IMG/VR virus record: IMGVR_UViG_3300032087_003134
Location: 1 to 29,630 of that record
DNA length: 29,630 bases
Direction: 5' to 3' (one strand)
Source: a virus
The notes below the pieces were generated by a model that had not been told where the DNA came from, did no database searches, and saw only the letters and a program-made list of their open reading frames with translations. The translations under genes and the position numbers were made by a program. Below, piece by piece: positions 2,571 to 27,315 of the stretch. The stretch's first letter is position 1; each line of letters opens with the position of its first letter.

Positions 2571-4775
2571 CTATGGTAATGTTATATCTGTTGGTCTTGA
2601 ATTTGTAGCTTTGTATTCATCTGATTCTGCATCCCAAGCTGCTTGTGCTGCTTGAACAATCGGTGTTACAATAGCTTGTGCTTCTGCTTTAGTTAAATCA
2701 ACATAAACAGGCTTCATATTACCATAATCAACTTCTGCTGCTTTTTGTAATGCTGCTATTTTAGTATAATCACGTTCTTTAGCTTCTTGTTCATCACGCT
2801 TTTTTAAAGCAGCCATTTTGTTTTGGTATTCCATTAGGTCTGCATTAGCATCTAATACTTCACTATGTAGACTCCAATTAGATATAGAAGCCTGTAGTTT
2901 TGAACTATCTGTACTTGCTGGACTTGCATTATGAGCATTGTTTTGTCCATCACTTAGTAAGGTAAATCCATTTCCTCCTTTCAAATCATCATTAGATATA
3001 GTAGTTACTGTAGTAGATACACTCTCACTTCCGTCTATATATACTTTAATAGTTGGAGTAATTCCCGAAGGCTTTGTTACTACTAAGTGGTGCCATTCCC
3101 CATCATTTACATCTGTTGCTGCTGTAATAGTTTGACTACTATCTATGAGAGTAAGTACCATATTACTAGCATTTACTTCCATTTTTAATCCATCAGTAAC
3201 GGCTCCTTCTGTATTGCTAAACAGTACACCTGTAGCGTCTAGCGTAGTTTTAAACCAGCCTGATATAGATAAATTAGATGTTGTGGTAAATATATTTCCT
3301 GATTTAGCTCCTCCTTGATAATATATAGGATCTGAAGCATTATGTGTATAAGTTACGTCTGTACCATTATGAGAATCTAGGAAAGATGTACCTGATACAG
3401 CATCATAAAGAGAAGCTCCATCACCTGCTTCATCTCCACATCGTATATGTCTTTCTAAGTAAGAAGCACAAGAACTATCCATTACATTAAAATAATTTCC
3501 TGAATTGTAAATTTCAGAAATTTCTTGAGAAGTTAGACTCTTACGCCAAGTAGATAATTCGTCTATATCTGCTGTATATTGCGTAGTTCCTATGTTTGGA
3601 AAAGTGTTAGGAGTGGTACTAGCACCAGGTAATCTTGATAATATACCTGCATTTACAACAGTTAAAGCTGCTGAATCAGGGTCATATGTACCTGCCTGTG
3701 TTGCAGTAGTCCCTACAGTAGTATTTCCTGCATTTATTGATAATGTAGAATTAGTTATAGCTGTGTATAAACTAGCATTTTGAGGTATGTTTATAACATA
3801 ATGATGCCAATCTGTAGAATTAGCATTACTCACGTCAAAACTTTTCCATCCACCTGCTCCCCAAGATCCTGATCGTTGATAATCTCTATTAGCTCTTTGT
3901 ACATATAATTTATTATATTGAAAATATATAAAAAATTGACCTTCCCAAGTATCATAAGTAGAGTGAAAGGGAGCTCCATGATCATGATAATATTGATACA
4001 TTATCATTTGCTGACTACTTTGTGTCTTATCTCCTTTATGCCAGAAACTTATAGCAGAATCAGTTTGAGTCCACCAATGCACAGTTCCACCTGATCTTGT
4101 ACTATCATCATAAGTAGGAAACCAGCCTTTATTGTTTGTAAAAGTTGTTTGACTATACATACCTTCAGCAGGAGTATTTCCAGGTGTCCGAGCATATTTT
4201 GTATTTGAGCTATCTATTTGCTCAGTCAAATTTTGCGTTGTAGTATTACTATCTGTTTGTATTACTTTAGCATTTGTAAAGTTATCGTATCCACCATGTC
4301 TAAATAGAACAGGCTTATATGTAGTAGTAGGGTTCTCACTTGTTTTAAACCACTGACTGTAATTAAATGATTTATTTGTTCCAATATGTTGATGCATAAA
4401 ATCTCTATCTCCAGAACCTACTGGAGAAACTGTGTTTCCATTTACATCAAAGTTAAGACCGCCTTTAGCAAATTTATTTTTAAACTCACCTGCATCTGGT
4501 GTAAGTTTAACAGCTTGTTCGTTTCCAATTACGTCGCCTGTTTGACTAGCTGCCGATGAACTTACTGTACGAGATACAGCCGGACACCAATTTTGTCCAT
4601 CTGGACTCATTTCCATTTCTACGTCTACTGTACCGGATAGACTATTATCTGTTGTTACCGTTAATATGTGATTCTTTGTACGAGGTCCAAGTTCAATAGG
4701 ATCACTAACAACCTCGGCTCCGCCAGCCTTAGTCGTTTCGGTAGTCTTAAATTTTTTCTTATAATTAGATGCCAT
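2571..4775 (-). CDS. LamG/concanavalin-like virion protein (putative tail spike or adhesin)
   Basis: 734 residues. The N-terminal 110 residues look like a small beta domain (VEMEMSPDGQNWCPA). Two LamG/concanavalin-A-like domains follow, near residues 125-420 and 480-640. Both have the hallmark strand pair, an SxWFKT segment followed about 70-200 residues later by WHHYVINI or EWHHLVVTK. The last 90 residues are helical and charged. LamG-type domains usually bind glycans, so recognition of a host surface polysaccharide is the likely role. It is the first gene after the capsid terminator and lies upstream of the kelch genes, forming an adhesin cassette. An AGGAG ribosome site precedes the ATG at 4775. 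Confidence 0.8.
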   Translation of the reverse strand: MASNYKKKFKTTETTKAGGAEVVSDPIELGPRTKNHILTVTTDNSLSGTVDVEMEMSPDGQNWCPAVSRTVSSSAASQTGDVIGNEQAVKLTPDAGEFKNKFAKGGLNFDVNGNTVSPVGSGDRDFMHQHIGTNKSFNYSQWFKTSENPTTTYKPVLFRHGGYDNFTNAKVIQTDSNTTTQNLTEQIDSSNTKYARTPGNTPAEGMYSQTTFTNNKGWFPTYDDSTRSGGTVHWWTQTDSAISFWHKGDKTQSSQQMIMYQYYHDHGAPFHSTYDTWEGQFFIYFQYNKLYVQRANRDYQRSGSWGAGGWKSFDVSNANSTDWHHYVINIPQNASLYTAITNSTLSINAGNTTVGTTATQAGTYDPDSAALTVVNAGILSRLPGASTTPNTFPNIGTTQYTADIDELSTWRKSLTSQEISEIYNSGNYFNVMDSSCASYLERHIRCGDEAGDGASLYDAVSGTSFLDSHNGTDVTYTHNASDPIYYQGGAKSGNIFTTTSNLSISGWFKTTLDATGVLFSNTEGAVTDGLKMEVNASNMVLTLIDSSQTITAATDVNDGEWHHLVVTKPSGITPTIKVYIDGSESVSTTVTTISNDDLKGGNGFTLLSDGQNNAHNASPASTDSSKLQASISNWSLHSEVLDANADLMEYQNKMAALKKRDEQEAKERDYTKIAALQKAAEVDYGNMKPVYVDLTKAEAQAIVTPIVQAAQAAWDAESDEYKATNSRPTDITLP

Positions 4776-4869: not shown

Positions 4870-6153
4870 TTAAGATAATCCAGAGATTACACCATGAAAA
4901 CATGGGTTAATGTAAATCTGAAGATATCCACCGTAACGTGCTTCGTACGCATCGCTAGAAGCTTTACGTAAGAAAACAGTTCCGTCATCATCAAACCAAC
5001 CGAAGTCTGGTCTGTGGTGAATGTGGATATGAGCATCATTTAGAAGATATAGTCTGTCATCTTCAACAAAACGCTCTGGGAAGATCCCAACAGGTCCGTC
5101 GATAGACATAAACTGAATACCACTAAAAGATAGAGGTGCTCCGTTTGCAGTTTTTAATCCTGCTCTAGTTTCTACGTTGTACTGAACTTTGTCTTCAATA
5201 ATATGAAGAATTTTTTCATACTGCTTAAACGAACAAACAATAAGGTTTGGAGACTTACCACACTGCTTCTTAACTTTCAACATCATTTCGTTAAGTAAGT
5301 CAGTAGATATCTCTGTTCCTACGTTAAGTTTCTGAGCAGCTTTCCATCTACGTCCGTGGTTGATTCCGTAAGAAGAATCTGTAGAAGCAGACTTATCAAG
5401 AAGTTTAAGACCTTCTGGGTCAGCATCTTTAGAATTTTGCATGTAGATTTCAGCAGCTTGTAGGTTACCAGAACCGTCTTCAAAGTTACCTAAAACAACT
5501 TTACTAGAAGATAAAGTAACAGTAGGACTAGTAGTATTATCTGGATCAACAGCTATAATCTCTACACCTTTAATAGTAGTTCCAGCTCCAGTAGAAGCAG
5601 AAGAACTTACTTCAACGTCTACAAGATCTCTTTCTTCAAAGTTAGCTTCTTTCATGTCAGCAATAGGAACAACAATGTTTCCGTCACTATCAGCAGCTAA
5701 TAAAGCAGCCTTAGGATCTAAAGCATCAACAGCTACAGAAGTACCTAGTTTACCAGATCCATCATTAAAAAGAGCACGAGAAAGGTTTCTCATAAAAGAC
5801 TCAACACCTTTTTGAACTACTTCTTTAGTAGCTCTAACAAAAGCACCTTCGTCAGAAAGAGAAGCTTTGATAGTCTCTCTATCGATTTCTACAACAGCAT
5901 ACATCTTTTTAGCAGTGATTCTTGCATCTCCATAGATAGCTGTGTTAGAAGAAGGTAATTCACCAGAACCAACACCACCACTAAAAGATTGTGGAATAGC
6001 GATAGCTAGTTCTTTACCTGTAAAATTGTAAGATTTTTTTACTCGCCCTAAAAGTACGTTGGCTGAGTTATATACATTCTCAGAAAGCTTTTCGTACTTA
6101 ATCTTAAATAGAGCTGAGACTTCATCTAATGACATTTTAAATTGATTAGACAT
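4870..6153 (-). CDS. Major capsid protein
   Basis: 427 residues, a typical length for a major capsid protein. It lies directly after a scaffold-like gene and portal and before a strong terminator. The N-terminal region reads as a helix (SLDEVSALFKIKYEKLSENV), then SFSGGVGSGELP and an E-loop-like section with KKMYAVVEIDRETIKASLSD, then a long helix (FVRATKEVVQKGVESFMRNL). The C-terminal third has a P-domain-like NLIVCSFKQYEKIL segment and a RKASSDAYEARYGGYLQIYI end. These are usual features of HK97-fold capsid proteins of podovirus or siphovirus type. No protease cleavage site is obvious. Identity rests on gene order and this pattern rather than on a match to a named family. Confidence 0.88.
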   Translation of the reverse strand: MSNQFKMSLDEVSALFKIKYEKLSENVYNSANVLLGRVKKSYNFTGKELAIAIPQSFSGGVGSGELPSSNTAIYGDARITAKKMYAVVEIDRETIKASLSDEGAFVRATKEVVQKGVESFMRNLSRALFNDGSGKLGTSVAVDALDPKAALLAADSDGNIVVPIADMKEANFEERDLVDVEVSSSASTGAGTTIKGVEIIAVDPDNTTSPTVTLSSSKVVLGNFEDGSGNLQAAEIYMQNSKDADPEGLKLLDKSASTDSSYGINHGRRWKAAQKLNVGTEISTDLLNEMMLKVKKQCGKSPNLIVCSFKQYEKILHIIEDKVQYNVETRAGLKTANGAPLSFSGIQFMSIDGPVGIFPERFVEDDRLYLLNDAHIHIHHRPDFGWFDDDGTVFLRKASSDAYEARYGGYLQIYINPCFHGVISGLS

Positions 6154-6176: not shown

Positions 6177-7343
6177 TTATAAATCGTCAAAATCTATATA
6201 ACTTTCTTTAGATCTTGACTCCTTCTTTTTTGTTTCTTTAGGCTCTGCCTTTTTAGAAACGGTTTTGGATGCTTGTTCAAGCATGTCACCATAAACCTCT
6301 TGCACAATCTCCTTCAGGTCGTCGTTATCAAAAGATGGGTTCTCCATAATCACCTGTTGAAGGCTTTCGACTACTGATTCTTGATCTGCTAGTTGTGGAC
6401 TAATACTAGATAAAACATCATCCGCTCTGGAGAAAGCTATACTATGAGTATAATACTCAGCTACAGCTTGAGGGTTAATGTCTCCTTCGTACTCAGAATC
6501 CAACAATTCCTGGTAAGCATTTTCAAACTCTTCATCCGACATACTGTGAGCTTCCTGAACATCGGCAATCTCCATCTCCAGTTCCTTTAAGGCTTGCTGT
6601 TTTTGGGCTTGCTCTTGTGCAGACTCTTGTTGTTTGAGGAGATACTCGTTTTGAGCAAGTAGTTCCTCATTTTTTAATTCTTCAGGGGACATCATGCTTA
6701 ATCGCTCAACTTCGGGTGCTAACTGGCTTAGAAGTTCCCTCTTAAACTCGTGAGGCTTCATTCCAGAAAATTCTGCGAAATAAGCTAATGCTCCTAAAGC
6801 ATCATCATTTTTTAATTTATCAGCAAACGAATTAATATAATTATTAATATTATCAATTTGTTTACTGTAATCTTCCCTTTCCCTTTCAAATTCTTTTCTC
6901 TCTGAAGAAAATTCTTGAAATTTTTTATCGTAAGACATTTTACCACTATAATTATTTAATAATTCTTGTAGCTCTACGTCTACTTCTTCTCCATCTACTT
7001 TGTGCTTAAATACTGCATTAGCCGGCATCTCAAGGTTTTCTTCTCCGTACTTTGCAATAAGTTTTTTAATTTCTTCTGTCTTCTCTTCCTTCGCTCTAGC
7101 AATAACTTCTGCTTCTTCTGCTTCTTCTCTCGCTTCTGCTGTACTTTGCTCTTTAGACTCTGATTTGTCCGTTTTTCCCGAAATCTCTTTTTTAGCATCA
7201 CTTAATACTTCTGCTCCTGATCTCCCATCTGTTAATGCATCTAGTTCATCAAAAGATAGTGTTTGCGCACTTTCATTAGCTTCTGGAGCTAAATCCACCT
7301 CTTGTTGAATTTCTTGCACCTGATTTGTTGCTTCATCACTCAT
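6177..7343 (-). CDS. Scaffolding protein
   Basis: 388 residues, very acidic and helical. Glu, Lys, Gln and Ala dominate, with long coiled-coil-like stretches around residues 60-160 and 210-260, and the C-terminus turns basic (SKKAEPKETKKKESRSKES). A Glu-rich protein of this size between portal and major capsid, with a positively charged C-terminal end, is the classic profile of an internal capsid scaffold. In P22-like phages the basic end contacts the shell. The downstream capsid gene starts 23 bases later. The sequence itself is low-complexity, so the function rests on composition and position. Confidence 0.85.
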   Translation of the reverse strand: MSDEATNQVQEIQQEVDLAPEANESAQTLSFDELDALTDGRSGAEVLSDAKKEISGKTDKSESKEQSTAEAREEAEEAEVIARAKEEKTEEIKKLIAKYGEENLEMPANAVFKHKVDGEEVDVELQELLNNYSGKMSYDKKFQEFSSERKEFEREREDYSKQIDNINNYINSFADKLKNDDALGALAYFAEFSGMKPHEFKRELLSQLAPEVERLSMMSPEELKNEELLAQNEYLLKQQESAQEQAQKQQALKELEMEIADVQEAHSMSDEEFENAYQELLDSEYEGDINPQAVAEYYTHSIAFSRADDVLSSISPQLADQESVVESLQQVIMENPSFDNDDLKEIVQEVYGDMLEQASKTVSKKAEPKETKKKESRSKESYIDFDDL

Positions 7344-7344
7344 T

Positions 7345-9453
7345 TTAGTTTTCTCCCTTTTCTTCTATTTCTGATTTATCTTCTCCTGGAACCATTCCAG
7401 TAATTACCTCTCCTCTATTAGCTTGTCCTTGAACAACTAATTTTTGCTGTTCTACAGACCTTGGAGTAAATCCATTTGGAAAAATTGGAAAATTAGCTAA
7501 CTCTGCTAACTTAGCCTCAAATAAAGGATTTACCCTAGCTTTTTCTACCATCAAAAATTCATGTATAGCGATGTGTTCCATCATCTCTTCTCTGTACTCT
7601 ACAGGACATTCTTCTTTAAATGTACGCTCTTGCATTGCTTTAGAATGTACTTTCCAGTGTATGATGTGATCTTCAAATTCTTCAGGATCTCCCACAGGTC
7701 TTCCTGCCATTATATCTTCAGTCTCAGATTCAGCAGCTCTTACAGAAACAGTTAATAAACTATTCATTTTGTCTGTATTACCTAGATCTAATAAGTCAAG
7801 CCATCTCTCATCTGATAGTAAATTAGGTTTCATTTGCATAAGTTCTATAACACGTTGTACTTTACCGGCTTTAGATTCAGGTAAGCCTGATCCAAGTTCT
7901 AATCTAATGTCATAATTTTTACTTAAATTAGCAGTATCAAAATGTCTAATTGCATACTTATTATTTTTACCTACTATACGTACCATACGTCCATCATCAG
8001 GCTCATAATAATCTCCTGCAACAGATATTGTCATTTTTGCAAGCTCTTTAATCATTTCATTATGCTTGATTACTGTGGTACTGTTTCTTTCTTGTTCTTG
8101 TTCATTTAAAAATTGTAAAGCAACGGCAGCAGTAATACCTTTAGGAGGTGTTCCTCTAGATACCCCTTGGATACCATATATTTGTCCCATTTCATTACGT
8201 AACTGATCCCTGAAATTGTATGCTTCTGGAGGATTTGGTTGAGTTTGTAACATTTGAGGAGGTACTGGACCTTGGTACTGTACAATAGTATTATCATTAC
8301 CTAGTGATTCTATTTTACAAGCACCTCTAGGCATAACCCACTTAGCGTGTCCCATCATGTAAATGTTCTTAGCTAATAAGGTAGATAAATTATCATGCAT
8401 ATTTTGTATAGGTCTTACCATTTCGTATTGAGATATTCCGTTTAACTGCTCAGGTACATCCATATCAGTTATACGCACTAGTGGTAAATTACCGTGGCTA
8501 AATCTTAGTATGTCCATTTCTAGGATACAATCATCAGTAAATTTTACATAATATCCTTGAGGACAGTATTTAGTTTTTTTATGAAAGAATTCGTAGTAAA
8601 CTGTTTCCTCTTCAAGAAAATGCTCTGTAAGGTCATCTGAATCGAAAGCTTTTACATCAGCAGTTCTTTTTAATTTATCAGCTTTAGTAGGATACATTTT
8701 TTTCAATGTTTCTGTAGCCTCTACTTTAGTTCTAAAACAGTATTCTACTTTATCAAAACTTTTTTGTCTTTGTAGATATACTCTCCAAGGAACCTCTATT
8801 TCATATTCTACATCTCCAACATGTATAGGTTTACTAGGATCTATTTTTAGAGGAACGCCTTGAGCATCCAATATCTTGTTTCCATTCTTATCTATGAAAT
8901 CAAGAGATATACCTAGATCTCTAGCTTTGACATATAAAGGATGTAAATCTCCCTTATCTTTGTTCCAATTTACAAAACAAAATGACTCGCCAAATATAAA
9001 AGCATTTCTTAGCATTTTAGCTCTAAGTTCTTCTATATTATTAATATACCAAATATGATCTATTAGATATTTTACAGCTTTAGCTGCATTTCTATCTTCA
9101 TACTCATCATTAGTAGGCATAATATTTACTGAAGGCTTTAATCTAGATAATTGAGATATACGAGTTTCTGTCATGTCATGAAGGTGATTAACAATAAATT
9201 TATTAATCTTGTTAAGGAATTGACGCTCTGATCGTCTAATATCTGTACGCTTGATAGTGGTTACAGAACCTCGATATGATTCTAGATTTTTTCTACATTT
9301 AGAGTTTCTACTAATTGCTTGTTTTTCTAAAGATTTAACTACTTTAGTACACCACTCTAGTAATTCTTTTTCGTCTTCTTTGTTTATTGCGTGGAATGGT
9401 TTTACGTTTATTTTATCCGGTCGGTCGTCACCTAATTCATCAAAATAACTCAT
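7345..9453 (-). CDS. Portal protein
   Basis: 702 residues between the packaging genes and the scaffold, which is the portal position. Visible features agree with the large portals of P22-like podoviruses: an N-terminal helical segment with many Arg, the SRLKPSVNIMPTNDEYEDRN stretch near residue 105, a beta-rich wing, and a middle part with GISQYEMVRPIQNMHDNLST followed by helices. A GTPPKGITAAVALQFLNEQE segment of the kind seen before the channel helix lies near residue 435. The product would form the dodecameric vertex through which DNA is packaged. It ends one base before the scaffold start codon region, so the two are probably translationally coupled. Confidence 0.88.
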   Translation of the reverse strand: MSYFDELGDDRPDKINVKPFHAINKEDEKELLEWCTKVVKSLEKQAISRNSKCRKNLESYRGSVTTIKRTDIRRSERQFLNKINKFIVNHLHDMTETRISQLSRLKPSVNIMPTNDEYEDRNAAKAVKYLIDHIWYINNIEELRAKMLRNAFIFGESFCFVNWNKDKGDLHPLYVKARDLGISLDFIDKNGNKILDAQGVPLKIDPSKPIHVGDVEYEIEVPWRVYLQRQKSFDKVEYCFRTKVEATETLKKMYPTKADKLKRTADVKAFDSDDLTEHFLEEETVYYEFFHKKTKYCPQGYYVKFTDDCILEMDILRFSHGNLPLVRITDMDVPEQLNGISQYEMVRPIQNMHDNLSTLLAKNIYMMGHAKWVMPRGACKIESLGNDNTIVQYQGPVPPQMLQTQPNPPEAYNFRDQLRNEMGQIYGIQGVSRGTPPKGITAAVALQFLNEQEQERNSTTVIKHNEMIKELAKMTISVAGDYYEPDDGRMVRIVGKNNKYAIRHFDTANLSKNYDIRLELGSGLPESKAGKVQRVIELMQMKPNLLSDERWLDLLDLGNTDKMNSLLTVSVRAAESETEDIMAGRPVGDPEEFEDHIIHWKVHSKAMQERTFKEECPVEYREEMMEHIAIHEFLMVEKARVNPLFEAKLAELANFPIFPNGFTPRSVEQQKLVVQGQANRGEVITGMVPGEDKSEIEEKGEN

Positions 9454-9461
9454 TTATGCTC

Positions 9462-9707
9462 CTATACCATTCTGTATATTTCTTCATTTTCGTCTTGTTG
9501 CTCTTGATTTATTTCATCGAATACTTTGTCAGGATCGGCAAACTTCTCAGTATTGAGAGCTTCCTCGGCTGGCATAAATTGTACGGTGTGTGTTTGTTTT
9601 TCCAAACTTTTCACCAAAATCAGAGCATACAGAGTAAAAGGTAACAGAATCATGCTTAAAATGCAAGATAAAAGTGAAAAAATTACTGAAATCTGTGTAA
9701 TATCCAT
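9462..9707 (-). CDS. Small single-span membrane protein between terminase and portal
   Basis: 81 residues. Residues 5-33 are strongly hydrophobic (SVIFSLLSCILSMILLPFTL and following), giving one long membrane helix. Residues 45-81 are acidic and soluble (KVFDEINQEQQDENEEIY). The gene fits in the 8-and-3-base gaps between the portal and large terminase genes on the same strand, so it is co-transcribed with the packaging genes. I do not recognise the family. A role in anchoring or regulating packaging, or a virion membrane-contact protein, is only a guess. Confidence 0.7.
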   Translation of the reverse strand: MDITQISVIFSLLSCILSMILLPFTLYALILVKSLEKQTHTVQFMPAEEALNTEKFADPDKVFDEINQEQQDENEEIYRMV

Positions 9708-9710
9708 AGT

Positions 9711-11192
9711 TTAGTCCTCCCAGGGGATCATATTCCAAGTCCAATCTTGTTCTTTTTTTATATCGTTTAAATCGTCTTCTTTTCGTCTCCATCCTCTATC
9801 GTTTTCTTTATTTAGCTTTTTCTCTATGACCTCATTCATGTCATAATTAGCTGCTGCGTTTAAATATCTCCAACAATCGATTAAATGGTCATTTTTCTTA
9901 GGTATATCGCCTCTATCTGTACGTACATAGTTCTGTATCTCCCATTTTAACTTTACCATGCGATCTGAAAAGGTTACAGTATTATATATCATTTGATCTT
10001 TACATAAAGATAGTCCATTTTCCTTTTTATGTAAGTGTTTAGCTGTAGGCATGAAATAATCTCCAAATTGACCCATTAATTCAGTAGCAAACCATGCTGC
10101 GGCTTCATCATATACCTTATACCAATCATCTACATCTATATAAGGATTTAGTTCTTTCATTTTTTCTTTTATTCTAGGATAAATTTGCCTAACTGACGTA
10201 TTCTCCTGGCTAGTCTCGTAGAGTTCGTCAAGAATATACACCTGTTTAGTATAAGGATTGATAGCAGCAAAAAGCACGGCAAAACAAGTAGTGGAGCCAG
10301 GATCAGTAATGCAATACCAATCAAGTTTTTTAAGATCCTTCTGTATATCATTAATTACTCCTCTGAAGGGTTGTAATCTTTTGGGGTCAAACATTGGGAA
10401 AATAGAGTTCCTTCCTCCCAAGCTGATTTCTCCAAAATACTCTCGTTTGATAACATCATCTTCACCACGAACCCTGAGTTTTTCAATTTCCCTGTCGATC
10501 TCCTCTTTAGGTGTGTATGGATTATCATAAGATGAGGCGATAATGTGTGCGCAATCTTTCCTGTCAAAACATTCATCTGCAAACTCCATATATTGATCTT
10601 GGTTTCGGTCTCCTGGCTTAGGCGGTGTCCCGATTATTACAAGAGGTGCTTTACGTACAATACGGTTTGGATTCATTTCTGTATGGAACATAGGATGAAA
10701 TACTTTAAATTCGTCATATACCACAAAGTCTGGTGTAAGACCGTTAGCAGCAGCCCAGTTCTCAGAACCTACAATCTTTATTGTACTATTATTTTTAAAA
10801 GTAACACGTGAGTCAGTATTACCTATATGTTTTATATATTTTTTTAGTGGTTCTTCTCCACCTGGAACAAAACGTCCTTTCTCATCTTTCTCTCTACCAA
10901 ACTGAGCTAGACGACCATTATGCCAAACTAGTTCTCTACCGTGAGATAGTTCTGGAGTAATGTAGTAACATGTGGAACCAGGGTGTAACAAAGCATGCCG
11001 CCATAACATGTAAACGGCAAAGTCCGTCTTACCCCATTTCCGTCCACATTGTATAAAGACCGTACCTACATCTCCCTTTACTAAGGGCATACCTACCTTA
11101 ACCTGTCCTTCATGAGGATTCCAATGTTTATGCAGATCTTCCATGATTTGCAGATATAAGGCATCACTAGGTTTTAGGTCTATTAAGCTCAT
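9711..11192 (-). CDS. terL: Terminase large subunit
   Basis: 493 residues, normal for TerL. The N-terminal ATPase has a Walker A-like loop GRKWGKT at residues 50-56 and a Walker B VVYDE at 157-161. The C-terminal RNase H-like nuclease supplies its acidic residues in CITDPGS (D297), KVYDEAA (D362) and NDHLID (D435/D439). The enzyme uses ATP to translocate DNA through the portal and cuts concatemers. It overlaps the upstream protease gene by four bases (ATGA type) and lies upstream of the portal in the late operon. Confidence 0.95.
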   Translation of the reverse strand: MSLIDLKPSDALYLQIMEDLHKHWNPHEGQVKVGMPLVKGDVGTVFIQCGRKWGKTDFAVYMLWRHALLHPGSTCYYITPELSHGRELVWHNGRLAQFGREKDEKGRFVPGGEEPLKKYIKHIGNTDSRVTFKNNSTIKIVGSENWAAANGLTPDFVVYDEFKVFHPMFHTEMNPNRIVRKAPLVIIGTPPKPGDRNQDQYMEFADECFDRKDCAHIIASSYDNPYTPKEEIDREIEKLRVRGEDDVIKREYFGEISLGGRNSIFPMFDPKRLQPFRGVINDIQKDLKKLDWYCITDPGSTTCFAVLFAAINPYTKQVYILDELYETSQENTSVRQIYPRIKEKMKELNPYIDVDDWYKVYDEAAAWFATELMGQFGDYFMPTAKHLHKKENGLSLCKDQMIYNTVTFSDRMVKLKWEIQNYVRTDRGDIPKKNDHLIDCWRYLNAAANYDMNEVIEKKLNKENDRGWRRKEDDLNDIKKEQDWTWNMIPWED

Positions 11193-11893
11193 CGTCTTCT
11201 ATTTAACCTTTCGTAACGAATCATACCTATAAGAGGACATTTAGATTCATATACTTTATAACTACCAAAAAAACTATTTACTATTCTACTAGTTTCTTCG
11301 TTTACTAATTCTTTACTACATCCTACCGTTTGAATAGAGTCTACAAAATTTTTCTTTACACAATCATATCCATGACACCAGTACTCATCCTTTGCATAGG
11401 ACTGATACTTTTCTAAACTAAGTCCCATACGTTTAGCATTTACTTTTTCCATAGATTGTACAATACCTGTCCACAACTCTAACTGTTGTTCTATTTCACC
11501 TTTGTTAAATGTACCTCTAAAACCTCCAGAGGCTCTGTGAGCCATAGATGACATATTAGGTACACCATATCTCTTACCTGGACATGCTTGTAGAAAGTGA
11601 TGTCCCATAGAGTAAGCTCTAATAGCTATGCACTCCACATTCCTAGGTATCGTAGCAAAGAGCTGAACAAAATTGAGCCCATCGTAGACAGAACCACCAG
11701 GACTATCAAGAACAATATATAACGTGTCCCCTGGCTTAGTCCTGAAACTAAGTTTGAGCAGATCGACTGAAGCTTTTCCAACGCTCGTAGCATTTACAAC
11801 CCCCTTAAATACAATATGGTTATTCTTTGTTAGTGTTATCTGACTCAGAGCTAGTGTCGGAACCAGAAGCATTATTGCTAGTAGTAGTTTCAT
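11189..11893 (-). CDS. ClpP-fold serine protease with signal peptide
   Basis: 234 residues from the ATG at 11893, chosen because GGGAG lies just upstream and because the protein then begins with a clean signal peptide: Lys2, a Leu-rich core, and a predicted cut after ALS17. The mature part is ClpP/S14-like. It has an oxyanion segment LDSPGGSVYDG (62-72), the nucleophile in AYSMGHHF (Ser95), His119 in SSMAHRASGG, and an acidic partner at Asp169 (AKDEYW). The Ser-His and His-Asp spacings of 24 and 50 are close to those of ClpP. A later GYDCVKKNFVDSI matches the family's glycine-leucine-aspartate end. The signal peptide points to export across the inner membrane, unusual for this fold in phages. 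The gene overlaps the small terminase by 74 bases. Substrate unknown. Confidence 0.85.
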   Translation of the reverse strand: MKLLLAIMLLVPTLALSQITLTKNNHIVFKGVVNATSVGKASVDLLKLSFRTKPGDTLYIVLDSPGGSVYDGLNFVQLFATIPRNVECIAIRAYSMGHHFLQACPGKRYGVPNMSSMAHRASGGFRGTFNKGEIEQQLELWTGIVQSMEKVNAKRMGLSLEKYQSYAKDEYWCHGYDCVKKNFVDSIQTVGCSKELVNEETSRIVNSFFGSYKVYESKCPLIGMIRYERLNRRR

Positions 11894-12353
11894 CTGTAAT
11901 CTCCCTGTAAGACGCATCCTCGATGTAAAATGGGTCATTTTTTAGTTTCGCCTTCAGCTCTATTACTGTAGACGGCTTGTGTTCGCTAATTATATCAGTC
12001 GGCTCTCCATCATCTAGCCTGATTATACGATCAATCTCAGACACAATGTTAGTTAGCAACCTAGCCTCATGTATTGTTGGCGGTTTGTCTCTCTTTTTCA
12101 GATCTTCTATCGCCCTATCTACACAATCAAGCGAGTTTGATGTAAGATTTACTAAAATCGCTCTCTTGTTATCAGCCAAATCTCGCAAAATTTCCTTACG
12201 TACCAGATTTCGCTCTTCTTCCCACTTATTTTTATGATATACCAGTGTTCTGTACTTAATATTCAATACCTTAGCTATCTCTTTTAGCGGTTTGAAGTCC
12301 ATAAACATGGATTTTGCCGTATCTAGGTCATATTTTGACTTTACTTCGCTCAT
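11820..12353 (-). CDS. terS: Terminase small subunit (putative)
   Basis: 177 residues, with a helix-turn-helix-like N-terminus (DFKPLKEIAKVLNIKYRTLV, near residues 19-38) followed by a helical middle. The last 25 residues are an acidic, Ser/Asn/Asp-rich tail. Small terminases bind the packaging site as rings, and this size, DNA-binding N-terminus and position two genes before TerL fit. The acidic tail is encoded in the same 74 bases that encode the start and signal peptide of the protease gene in another frame. The upstream metallopeptidase gene overlaps the start by four bases. Assigned by position and fold pattern. Confidence 0.7.
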   Translation of the reverse strand: MSEVKSKYDLDTAKSMFMDFKPLKEIAKVLNIKYRTLVYHKNKWEEERNLVRKEILRDLADNKRAILVNLTSNSLDCVDRAIEDLKKRDKPPTIHEARLLTNIVSEIDRIIRLDDGEPTDIISEHKPSTVIELKAKLKNDPFYIEDASYREITDETTTSNNASGSDTSSESDNTNKE

Positions 12354-12688
12354 TTCTTCTTACCCTTGCTTAGGAATTGCCATAGTTCTGGATTATCCAT
12401 TATTAATTGCATCAGTACAGGAGATATCAATCTAATAAGATTCTCCTCTTTATCATAATTTTTGCTATCAGAGTCAAAGTTAAATATTGCCTCTGCCTTA
12501 TCCTCCATTACCACGTGAAGTAGTTCATGTAGTAGTGTTTCTCTGGTAATCTCATCATTCTTACACTTGTATATAGTAACAGTTTTGGTACTAGAATCTG
12601 TCTTACCGTACATCTCTTCGGCTTCCTCCTGACTCCAGTATATTTGCCAGTTATAACAGCCACACTTGAATTTAGTTGGTTTCCGCAT
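12350..12688 (-). CDS. Phage zinc metallopeptidase-like protein
   Basis: 112 residues with the zinc-protease signature HELLHVVMED at residues 54-63. In this HExxH motif two His bind zinc and Glu acts as base. A downstream Glu in the KEENLIRLISPVLMQLIMDN helix is a candidate third ligand. This small IrrE/ImmA-like form, ending in a DNPELWQFL helix, is often found beside phage terminase genes, but its substrate is not known to me. A CGC pair near residue 9 is of unclear meaning. It is the first gene of the minus-strand late operon, has an AAGGTGAG ribosome site, and begins next to a promoter-like sequence. Confidence 0.8.
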   Translation of the reverse strand: MRKPTKFKCGCYNWQIYWSQEEAEEMYGKTDSSTKTVTIYKCKNDEITRETLLHELLHVVMEDKAEAIFNFDSDSKNYDKEENLIRLISPVLMQLIMDNPELWQFLSKGKKK

Positions 12689-14717: not shown

Positions 14718-14896
14718 TTGATTTAGATGATTTTAACCAAGACATTGACCACAACTGGACCGCATCTGAAATATTAAGAGAACGTGCGCCTCATTTACTG
14801 TACGAATTACAGAATGAATTCTATCAGATGCATAAAGATGAAGGCAATATTAAGGTAGAACCATTTACAGGTAACGAGTATTGGGTGGAGGATTAA
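14714..14896 (+). CDS. Hypothetical acidic protein, 60 residues
   Basis: ATGA overlap with the gene before and TAATG overlap with the gene after, so it is locked into a translationally coupled chain. Acidic and aromatic (DDFNQDIDHNWTASEIL, RAPHLLYELQNEFYQMHKDE). No recognised domain. Confidence 0.7.
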   Translation: MIDLDDFNQDIDHNWTASEILRERAPHLLYELQNEFYQMHKDEGNIKVEPFTGNEYWVED

Positions 14897-15423
14897 TGAA
14901 TATATTCTTCTTAGATACTGATACTAAACAATGCGCTAAATACCATTGCGACAAACATGTTGTAAAAATGATTTTAGAGTATTGCCAACTACTATCTACA
15001 GCGCATCGTGTATTAGATGAAGGTGAGCTTGACCCATGGATGGATGAGAGGCTTTATAAAAAAACACACGTGAATCATCCTAGTAGCGTGTGGGTGAGAC
15101 AAAATGCACGTAACTATCAGTATGTATTTGATTTACTCTATAGCCTAAGTCAGGAGTACAGGCAACGATATGACAAAGGACATAAGTCATGGGATAACTT
15201 AAAGTTTGCATTGTGCATGTATCCTAAGAATATAAGTTTAGAGAATATCAGAGAACCGTTGTGTCTGGACCAAGCTCCTCAATGCATGCCTGATGAGTAC
15301 AAGGACCCAAGTACAATACAAGCATATAGAAACTACTACAACGGAGACAAAGCATATATGGCAAAATGGAAAAATAGTGTAACACCAGAATGGTTTAAAC
15401 CCGAACTTGAGGAGGTAAGGTAA
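14896..15423 (+). CDS. Pyrimidine-dimer DNA glycosylase-like protein
   Basis: 175 residues from the ATG at 14896, preceded by GGAG and overlapping the previous stop (TAATG). The N-terminus reads MNIFFLD and CAKYHCDKHVVKMILEYCQL, then LSTAHRVL and HVNHPSSVWVRQNARNYQYV. This Cys-x-x-x-HCDKHVVKM arrangement is typical of phage proteins annotated as pyrimidine dimer DNA glycosylase or T4 endonuclease V relatives. The end (YRNYYNGDKAYMAKWKN, then PEWF) also fits the family. The likely role is repair of UV-damaged phage DNA, useful in sunlit water. The family match is from memory; activity is not proven. Confidence 0.7.
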   Translation: MNIFFLDTDTKQCAKYHCDKHVVKMILEYCQLLSTAHRVLDEGELDPWMDERLYKKTHVNHPSSVWVRQNARNYQYVFDLLYSLSQEYRQRYDKGHKSWDNLKFALCMYPKNISLENIREPLCLDQAPQCMPDEYKDPSTIQAYRNYYNGDKAYMAKWKNSVTPEWFKPELEEVR

Positions 15424-18100: not shown

Positions 18101-18487
18101 ATGTTAACAGAACTTACATTAGGTGGACTGATATTTCATACATTATCATTAGAGCCACAAATACCAGATGTTATGGTATCACCTAACGTCATAATGAAAT
18201 TTGATAATCACAATGTTTTACTAGGAGAGAATAGTGTACGCGAACCTATTGTTGGGTATGGTTATGATTTTAATCTTGTTACTCATGAGTCAGCAGTTAT
18301 AGATTTTAAGTTAGGCGGTTATTTTCAGGAAGAAAAACCATTTAGAGATATAGGTATTAAATTACCTTTTCATGAGTTCATGCCTATCATGGGGTTTGAA
18401 CTTGATTTTCCTGTAACAGATGACATAGCATTGACTACCATGATAACTCCATTAATGACTTTTAGTGGCATAACATTTAGGTTCTAA
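18101..18487 (+). CDS. Beta-rich protein, possible outer-membrane barrel
   Basis: 128 residues behind AAGGGAGG. The sequence is rich in alternating polar and nonpolar stretches (PIVGYGYDFNLVTHESAVID, FMPIMGFELDFPVTDDIALT) with Gly and aromatic girdle residues. It ends in SGITFRF, a terminal aromatic as in outer-membrane barrel signals. There is no clear signal peptide, which weakens the barrel idea. It directly follows the PQ-loop gene (two-base gap), so the pair may act together at the envelope. Alternative: a soluble beta protein. Family not recognised. Confidence 0.6.
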   Translation: MLTELTLGGLIFHTLSLEPQIPDVMVSPNVIMKFDNHNVLLGENSVREPIVGYGYDFNLVTHESAVIDFKLGGYFQEEKPFRDIGIKLPFHEFMPIMGFELDFPVTDDIALTTMITPLMTFSGITFRF

Positions 18488-25966: not shown

Positions 25967-26356
25967 TTACTTGCCTAGCTTACTTGCACTTACAATCTTC
26001 TCTATGGTACGTCCTCCAACATAAGCACCTAAAAAGATCTCAGCTAACTTGTACAGCTCAGGACCTGGATTACAAAGACCAAAAGAAGCCAACACAATAA
26101 TAGTGACCAGAGCGGTCGAACAGATGGGTCGCCACATGGCAACAAAAGGATGAGGTGAATTAGCCTCTGCGATTAGCAATTTGTGTCGGTATTCTGCCAG
26201 CTTACTTTCGTAGTCTAGGATTCTATCCTGTGCTTTTCCTTGTATCTTAGCCAACTCATTTTTTAGTTTAAGCTTCTCCTCTTCAGAAGTATGAAGCTCA
26301 TCAACTATCTTAGATGCTGGACTAAATATGTTTGATATGAAATCAAATAATCCCAT
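25967..26356 (-). CDS. Holin (3TM, gene-transfer-release type)
   Basis: 129 residues: an amphipathic N-terminus (GLFDFISNIFSPASKIVDEL), a charged coiled coil (residues 23-65), then HPFVAMWRPICSTALVTIIV and a second hydrophobic segment (LAEIFLGAYVGGRTIEKIV). The PHPFVAxWRP motif is a hallmark of the Holin_3TM family. Holins form membrane holes that let the endolysin reach peptidoglycan. It is the last minus-strand gene of the lysis block; its ATG overlaps the stop of the preceding small gene. Confidence 0.85.
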   Translation of the reverse strand: MGLFDFISNIFSPASKIVDELHTSEEEKLKLKNELAKIQGKAQDRILDYESKLAEYRHKLLIAEANSPHPFVAMWRPICSTALVTIIVLASFGLCNPGPELYKLAEIFLGAYVGGRTIEKIVSASKLGK

Positions 26357-26523: not shown

Positions 26524-27315
26524 CTATTCTATGAATTTACTAACTTCGTCAGCAATTTCTTTATATGATTTACCTTTAGTCTTTTCGTTTAGTTCTTTAG
26601 AAGATGTATCTTTATCTAAAAACTCTTTAAATAATAAATTTCTTTTTGCTCTAGATTTAGTCTTTTTATTTACTATATCTGTAACTTTATCCATAGCATC
26701 TTCTTTAGAAAAATCTACCTTTTTTCTTATCTTTTTCCAGTAATTAGCAGCTTGTTTCCTCATTACATCATAGTTTTCATTTAATAGGTTAGGGTTCTTT
26801 AACAAGGTATCAGGAGCTTCTGGAAACAATTCTTTACTGGCTTCAGATATATTATGTCTACCTGTAGTTTGAAATAAACCAGCTCCTCTAAACTTATATC
26901 CCTCGCCTGGAAGATTACCTAAATCCTTACCTCGTTTACCTCCATATATTTTATCATATATAGCTTTTTGTCCTTTACTATGAAGTTTTTTTATTTCCTT
27001 AGGACTCATACCTTTTAATTCTGAAAATTGTTTTTGCATGTCTAAAAGATTTTTTACAGTATAACCTTTTTCTTTCGTTACATTAAAATTTGTTTCAGCT
27101 TTTATTGTAGCTAAATACGCAGCCTTTTCCCTACCAGTTAAGTTTAGATCTTTCATAGCGTCATATACTGCCTTTTTAATTTGCTTTCTATGAGCCATCT
27201 TAACACCTTTCTTAATTCTCTTATCTAGAGAACCTTCTTTTAAATATTTACTACGAGAAGGACTCTCTTTAAAATATTTAATTACTGACTTTTTAACTTC
27301 TTCTTTACTAGCCAT
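26524..27315 (-). CDS. Endolysin, GH19 chitinase-like
   Basis: 263 residues from the ATG at 27315 (MASKEEVKKS), with AAAGGT upstream; the longer frame from 27408 would lie inside the previous gene. The catalytic region shows GREKAAYLATIKAETNF (Glu74) and a second Glu at 82, then AIYDKIYGGKRGKDLGNLPG and YKFRGAGLFQTTGRHNI (140-156). This RGxGLxQxTGRxN block is the GH19/lysozyme-like signature. No signal peptide, so release would need the holin. It cuts peptidoglycan glycan strands. Confidence 0.87.
   Translation of the reverse strand: MASKEEVKKSVIKYFKESPSRSKYLKEGSLDKRIKKGVKMAHRKQIKKAVYDAMKDLNLTGREKAAYLATIKAETNFNVTKEKGYTVKNLLDMQKQFSELKGMSPKEIKKLHSKGQKAIYDKIYGGKRGKDLGNLPGEGYKFRGAGLFQTTGRHNISEASKELFPEAPDTLLKNPNLLNENYDVMRKQAANYWKKIRKKVDFSKEDAMDKVTDIVNKKTKSRAKRNLLFKEFLDKDTSSKELNEKTKGKSYKEIADEVSKFIE

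Follow-up and report, generated by a model that had tools for sequence, protein, structure and literature searches.

The gene lying between the terminase genes of a 29,630-nucleotide viral sequence (IMG/VR record IMGVR_UViG_3300032087_003134, analyzed over its whole length and called the window below) appears to encode a serine protease of the ClpP fold that carries a signal for export from the host cytoplasm. We give a probability of about 0.7 to the reading that this enzyme, made late in infection and independent of ATP, would cut host envelope proteins through Ser95, His119, and Glu170. The evidence comes from the conservation of its leader, from the comparison with leaderless ClpP proteins carried partly by the same phages, and from the proteases that take its place before the large terminase gene in related loci.

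Gene context, fold, and active site

The protease ORF runs on the minus strand from an ATG at 11893 to a stop codon that ends at 11189 and encodes 234 residues (Table 1). It overlaps the gene of the TerS-like HTH protein by 74 nt and that of TerL by 4 nt, in agreement with a preliminary description that had placed it between the terminase genes. The order of the operon is M78-like HELLH protein, TerS-like HTH protein, exported protease, TerL, small membrane protein, portal, scaffold, and major head protein. Both the start at 11893 and its Shine-Dalgarno sequence (GGGAGAT or close to it) were retained in all full-length close relatives. A longer frame opening at the ATG at 11938 was rejected, as it is without a Shine-Dalgarno sequence and that ATG is not generally conserved in the relatives. 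Initiation after the leader, which the preliminary description had considered, was ruled out by the Shine-Dalgarno sequence, by conservation, and by the lack of any later ATG before the fold.

Table 1. Features of the window discussed in the text (positions on the 29,630-nucleotide stretch)
Feature	Position	Strand	Basis
Gene of the predicted exported serine protease (ClpP fold, 234 aa)	11189..11893	-	Pfam CLP_protease, AF2 and Foldseek; counterparts kept across dozens of loci
Signal peptide, codons 1-17 (MKLLLAIMLLVPTLALS)	11843..11893	-	Predicted cut before Gln18; homologue alignment and rule-based calls with controls
Shine-Dalgarno sequence of the protease gene (GGGAGATT)	11898..11905	-	Sequence; GGGAGAT or equivalent in homologues
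Catalytic Ser95 codon	11609..11611	-	Invariant in exported and leaderless ClpPs
Catalytic His119 codon	11537..11539	-	Invariant in exported and leaderless ClpPs
Codon of Glu170, which probably completes the triad in place of the ClpP Asp	11384..11386	-	Conservation and alignment
TerS-like HTH protein, small terminase candidate	11820..12353	-	28% identity to L080 protein with Terminase_5 HTH match; phrog_4151 DNA binding
Terminase large subunit (TerL)	9711..11192	-	phrog_2 terminase large subunit, 6.1e-17; starts in the last protease codons
Putative metallopeptidase (M78-like, HELLH), encoded upstream of TerS	12350..12688	-	Pfam Peptidase_M78, 6.2e-4 (below cut-off); phrog_1233
Small protein, membrane segment at its N-terminus, encoded between TerL and portal	9462..9707	-	Conserved in every lineage-A locus read
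Portal protein (SU10/P22-like)	7345..9453	-	Pfam, 4.5e-11; phrog_156, 3.9e-28
Separate head scaffolding protein	6177..7343	-	phrog_3927, 5.8e-7
Major head protein	4870..6153	-	phrog_14242, 5.4e-16; SU10_MCP, 7.3e-5
Holin, 3 TM, GTA type	25967..26356	-	PF11351, 1.8e-9; phrog_3427, 1e-23
Endolysin	26524..27315	-	phrog_181, 1.2e-21

Three further genes of the window were also noticed. A 128-aa protein (18101-18487, plus strand) is beta-rich by eye, ends in a C-terminal Phe, and is conserved in genome G001; it gave no family match and may be a small outer-membrane barrel. A pyrimidine dimer DNA glycosylase-like protein is encoded at 14881-15423 on the plus strand (Pfam, 1.4e-5), and the product of the minus-strand gene at 2571-4775, probably a tail or virion protein, contains a Laminin G domain (Pfam, 7.1e-6).

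Assignment to the ClpP fold, also proposed earlier from the sequence, was supported by both the fold search and AlphaFold. Pfam CLP_protease matched residues 20-188 with E=8.8e-18, and the sequence matches in the PDB were all ClpP, the best at 1.9e-12. An AlphaFold (AF2) model built from 24 natural sequences reached a mean pLDDT of 87.7, and its top Foldseek matches against the PDB, all of them to ClpP, had TM-scores of 0.75-0.85 when normalized to the target. Judged by secondary structure, a long helix at 133-155 in the monomer model would be the ClpP handle region. In a viral fold library, the model also matched A0A6J5KYR7 of an uncultured Caudovirales phage over nearly its full length (TM 0.84) and A0A7D3V576, which is named ClpP/TepA and comes from the giant virus Fadolivirus (TM 0.78), the C-terminal extension being included in both cases.

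The catalytic triad first suggested, Ser95-His119-Asp169, stood for its serine and histidine but probably not for its acid. Position 169 was occupied by D, E, N, K, R, Q, or S among exported relatives, whereas position 170, which aligns with the catalytic Asp of ClpP, was E in 28, D in 9, and N in 1 of 38 exported proteins. Because position 169 varies while 170 is Glu or Asp in 37/38 and falls on the ClpP Asp, Asp169 was discarded as the catalytic acid, and the third residue is probably Glu170, giving a likely Ser95-His119-Glu170 triad.

Compared with ClpP (MEROPS S14, PF00574), the window protease shares the fold, the SPGGS oxyanion region, and the spacing of Ser and His, but differs in its probable third catalytic residue and in a C-terminal extension with conserved Cys. 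Its predicted signal peptide (residues 1-17) replaces the N-terminal axial, ClpX-docking segment; the ClpP match starts from residue ~20, and no partner ATPase was seen. The score against the bacterial clpP equivalog model (TIGR00493) was 52 bits for a cut-off of 308.6. A ClpP/crotonase-type fold working outside the cytoplasm without a Clp ATPase is known from SppA and NfeD. Unlike these, the window protease is a single small domain without an NfeD domain; SppA/NfeD models did not match it, and TIGR00706 (SppA) gave only weak matches below cut-off in relatives. COG3904 is a predicted periplasmic ClpP-like family; among the open-licence papers searched, a single one named it.

Relatives outside IMG/VR were also sought. 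Motif-pattern scans of 84,980 genomes, by protease and by TerL, returned no cellular relatives or hosts, such scans detecting only relatives that share the motifs. Among named phages, only ordinary ClpPs with 25-37% identity were found, none covering 80% of the window protease. A search limited to open-licence literature found no relevant paper on exported phage ClpPs or phage periplasmic proteases, so the novelty of the protein is provisional.

Export signal and its conservation

Translation of the window gene begins MKLLLAIMLLVPTLALSQITLTKNN, a typical signal peptide with the opening strand of the ClpP fold coming immediately after it. The leader (MKLLLAIMLLVPTLALS, followed by Q) displays n-, h-, and c-regions with an A-S site at -3/-1. 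Across 24 aligned homologues, down to 40% identity, the basic n-region (MK), the hydrophobic core, and small residues at -3/-1 were kept, while the sequence and length of the leader varied. The signal peptide noted in the preliminary description is therefore a conserved tripartite feature of the family. Cleavage after residue 17 is plausible, but the topology would be no different if the segment stayed in the membrane as an uncleaved anchor.

Export was called with a simple home-made Sec-signal rule, with starts picked by codon and Shine-Dalgarno sequence only. Crude as it is, this rule behaved cleanly in its controls: it was positive for 50/51 proteins of the group, as compared with 15/501 (3%) background genes from those contigs and 314/5100 (6%) shuffled sequences. 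In the final IMG/VR survey of distinct sequences, for which the search for a hydrophobic core was widened to residue 30, an N-terminal export signal was found in 78/78 exported-type proteases and in 0/24 leaderless ClpPs, partly from the same phages; these counts refer to distinct representatives that are related in sequence and thus are not independent samples. Homologues lacking the N-terminal extension, whose existence would have spoken against export, were absent among the family members surveyed. The only leaderless matches of the exported-type models, L035 and L036, were both ordinary ClpPs from other phages. Set against the leaderless ClpPs and the background genes, these frequencies agree with the earlier proposal that the protease is aimed out of the cytoplasm.

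We also considered that the leader might be an artefact of overprinting on the TerS frame. Across loci, the protease gene overlaps its upstream neighbor by as much as 107 nt, by as little as 4 nt, or not at all, and the leader persisted throughout. Because it is present where the overlap is 4 nt or absent, the leader is not a by-product of overprinting. In two relatives, a lipobox stands in place of the signal peptide (LALSSC in L141 and AISGC in L147). The cysteine content offers a further indication of the compartment: six cysteines (88, 104, 173, 178, 192, and 219) were invariant in the 24-sequence alignment, down to 40% identity, and in a wider set Cys104, Cys173, and Cys178 were each present in 23/38 and Cys88 and Cys192 each in 29/38. 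Such conservation would fit disulfides formed in an oxidizing compartment, with the cysteines probably paired.

The protease slot upstream of TerL

A scan of IMG/VR with the window TerL yielded 53 loci. Where the contig piece includes the gene before TerL, this gene nearly always encoded an exported protease, mostly a relative of the window protein; the slot proteins of L074 and L076 were very distant members of the ClpP fold. In six loci (L072, L075, L079, L082, L083, and, in the second TerL lineage described below, L138), the slot was filled by an unrelated exported protease of the trypsin fold, of the type of the HtrA/DegP trypsin-like proteases (PF13365). Trypsin_2 matches ranged from 1.7e-8 to 7.5e-22 for the four proteins tested among L072, L075, L079, L082, and L083, and the one scanned with NCBIfam (L075) was HtrA/DegP-like. 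The slot proteases of these same five loci also start with a hydrophobic leader; the trypsin-fold occupants are short and showed no PDZ domain by Pfam. Repeating the TerL scan from one of the phages with a trypsin-fold occupant returned no further loci, and the trypsin-like occupant had no match among named phages.

Exported ClpPs were also found upstream of TerL in lineage B, a distant TerL group with 21% identity to the window TerL; one of them (L143) shares 35% identity with the window protein across 204 residues. One lineage-B locus (L138) carries the trypsin-fold protease where the exported ClpP otherwise sits. Lineage-B genomes commonly encode a separate leaderless ClpP nearby. The exported ClpPs are closer to the window protein than these leaderless ones, and leaderless ClpPs formed a clade of their own in the tree (support, 0.997). 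Overall, a leaderless ClpP was found on the same contig piece for 28/78 exported representatives, and TerL for 66/78, always downstream and on the same strand. In genome G013 (locus L080), nothing lies between TerS and TerL. A leaderless ClpP is encoded upstream of TerS, and a second ClpP with a lipoprotein signal is encoded elsewhere in the genome, outside the head operon, where its neighbors are the gene of a membrane-anchored SLT transglycosylase and that of a membrane protein; this SLT neighborhood was seen in one genome only.

Fold, signal type, and exact neighbors change, whereas what stays is a serine protease bearing an export signal, as would be expected if proteolysis outside the cytoplasm is what selection maintains. 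The switch between signal types, the refilling of the slot by an exported trypsin/HtrA-like enzyme, and the presence of a second, leaderless ClpP all argue for this at the level of sequence.

Other genes of these operons were noted alongside. The HELLH protein (M78-like, phrog_1233; 12350-12688, minus strand), a second putative peptidase of the packaging operon, also precedes TerS in related loci such as L072, L075, L076, and L082, and lineage B also has HELLH proteins in the vicinity of its exported protease (L098 and L141). The 9462-9707 protein has a conserved motif, KSLEKxTHTVQFMP, in the lineage-A loci read, with a variant in L080, whose protease slot is empty. As a candidate partner of the protease, this small membrane protein was rejected, being present with the slot empty in L080, while lineage B has no membrane protein at that place. 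Several lineage-B phages encode a protein of ~295-320 aa between the exported ClpP and TerL (L128 1468-2427; L130 2588-3547), which may resemble a 2OG-Fe(II) oxygenase.

Candidate roles of the exported protease

Phage ClpP-like genes near terminase and portal genes are routinely named prohead proteases, and the window protein could in principle be an ordinary cytoplasmic enzyme of this type whose hydrophobic N-terminus serves as a propeptide or as a tether to the membrane at the site of head assembly. It shares with phage head maturation proteases (NF045542, phrog_94) the ClpP fold and a late-operon position near terminase and portal genes, where prohead proteases also sit; its best PHROG matches are head maturation proteases (phrog_94, 7.1e-12), and it matches NF045542 at 2.7e-10. 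However, the NF045542 score is 40.5 against a curated cut-off of 120 bits, thus 80 bits short, and many related phages hold a separate leaderless ClpP that fits head maturation better (3e-23 versus 2.7e-10 with NF045542). The leader found in every exported-type protein, with a lipobox in two of them, the conservation of cysteines, a positive n-region that predicts a catalytic domain on the outside, the separate scaffold gene of the window, and the exported copy of G013 outside the head operon all speak against such a prohead enzyme. The separate scaffold gene would also be consistent with the preliminary suggestion that the capsid protein is not cleaved. The replacement of one fold by another is consistent with either place of action: Liu and Mushegian (2004, as cited in PMC10132091) reportedly described that one prohead protease fold is replaced by another in late operons, and the swapping of unrelated folds in such operons is a pattern that would even favor a prohead role. 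Because that pattern has already been reported, fold-swapping alone proves nothing about where the enzyme acts, and it is the shared export signal that carries the argument. We therefore consider a prohead role improbable, as the preliminary description had done. Catalogues would mislabel the exported enzyme as a head maturation protease.

The favored reading, that of an envelope protease, would run as follows, the word periplasm presuming a diderm host. The enzyme would be made in the late packaging and head operon alongside the packaging proteins and exported by the host Sec pathway through its signal peptide; some relatives would rely on a lipoprotein signal instead, or perhaps on an anchor that is not cleaved. 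The enzyme would then lose its leader or stay anchored in the membrane, fold outside the cytoplasm, where several of the conserved cysteines probably form pairs, and cleave host envelope proteins late in infection without an ATP-driven unfoldase. The leader's function and cleavage, the disulfides, the proteolytic activity, the late timing, and the envelope substrates are thus all predicted from sequence.

What such cleavage would serve is a matter for more tentative statements. A breach of the envelope at lysis and a block of re-adsorption or superinfection seem about equally likely, both ahead of the maturation of exported phage proteins or of feeding on periplasmic protein. As a lysis factor, the protease might weaken the outer envelope or cut lipoproteins or peptidoglycan-linked proteins, a spanin-like job; we regard this as possible, with the odds still against it. 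Its late operon would suit the task, as would the lipoprotein ClpP of G013 beside the membrane-anchored SLT gene and a membrane protein, and the window encodes a holin and an endolysin while no spanin was recognized in it. The absence of a spanin is weak evidence, given how small and varied spanins are and that the contig is incomplete, and the protease gene lies ~14 kb from the holin and endolysin genes.

Exclusion is a similarly tentative proposal: the protease might degrade or clip an outer-membrane receptor or an envelope protein required for DNA entry, so that infected cells and debris take up no more phage. The high divergence of the proteases and the swapping of their folds would suit changing envelope targets, and phage T5 provides a precedent for an exported phage envelope protein in its lipoprotein Llp, which acts in superinfection exclusion (PMC9586334). 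Llp resembles the window protease in being phage encoded and exported to the envelope, some relatives of the latter carrying lipoprotein signals, but the two are unrelated, and Llp acts as a FhuA-binding protein, not as an enzyme (PMC9586334). Against an exclusion role, the window protease gene belongs to the packaging operon instead of standing beside a receptor-binding protein.

An auxiliary function, either the digestion of periplasmic and envelope protein for amino acids or a DegP/HtrA-like quality control during phage growth, is unlikely. The cellular HtrA/DegP family includes quality-control proteases of the envelope, and the HtrA/DegP-like NCBIfam assignment of the replacement enzymes would favor such a role, but those occupants are short and show no PDZ domain by Pfam. 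Auxiliary genes are also usually variable, whereas the slot before TerL is almost always filled.

Taken together, these results point, by a small balance of probability, to widespread uncultured phages that keep a dedicated slot for exported proteases by their terminase genes, filled by two unrelated folds and mislabelled as head maturation, which would serve a protease-based attack on the envelope, in lysis or in exclusion, that has not been described before. A whole, widely sampled branch of phage ClpP-like proteins is predicted to be exported, and many phages carry both an exported and a leaderless ClpP. The presence or absence of a leader offers a simple rule to separate the two kinds and corrects the annotation of dozens of phage genomes. 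The fold-swapping slot supplies natural replicates with which an envelope role can be tested, and if the exported enzyme does attack the envelope, it would represent a proteolytic route to lysis or exclusion.
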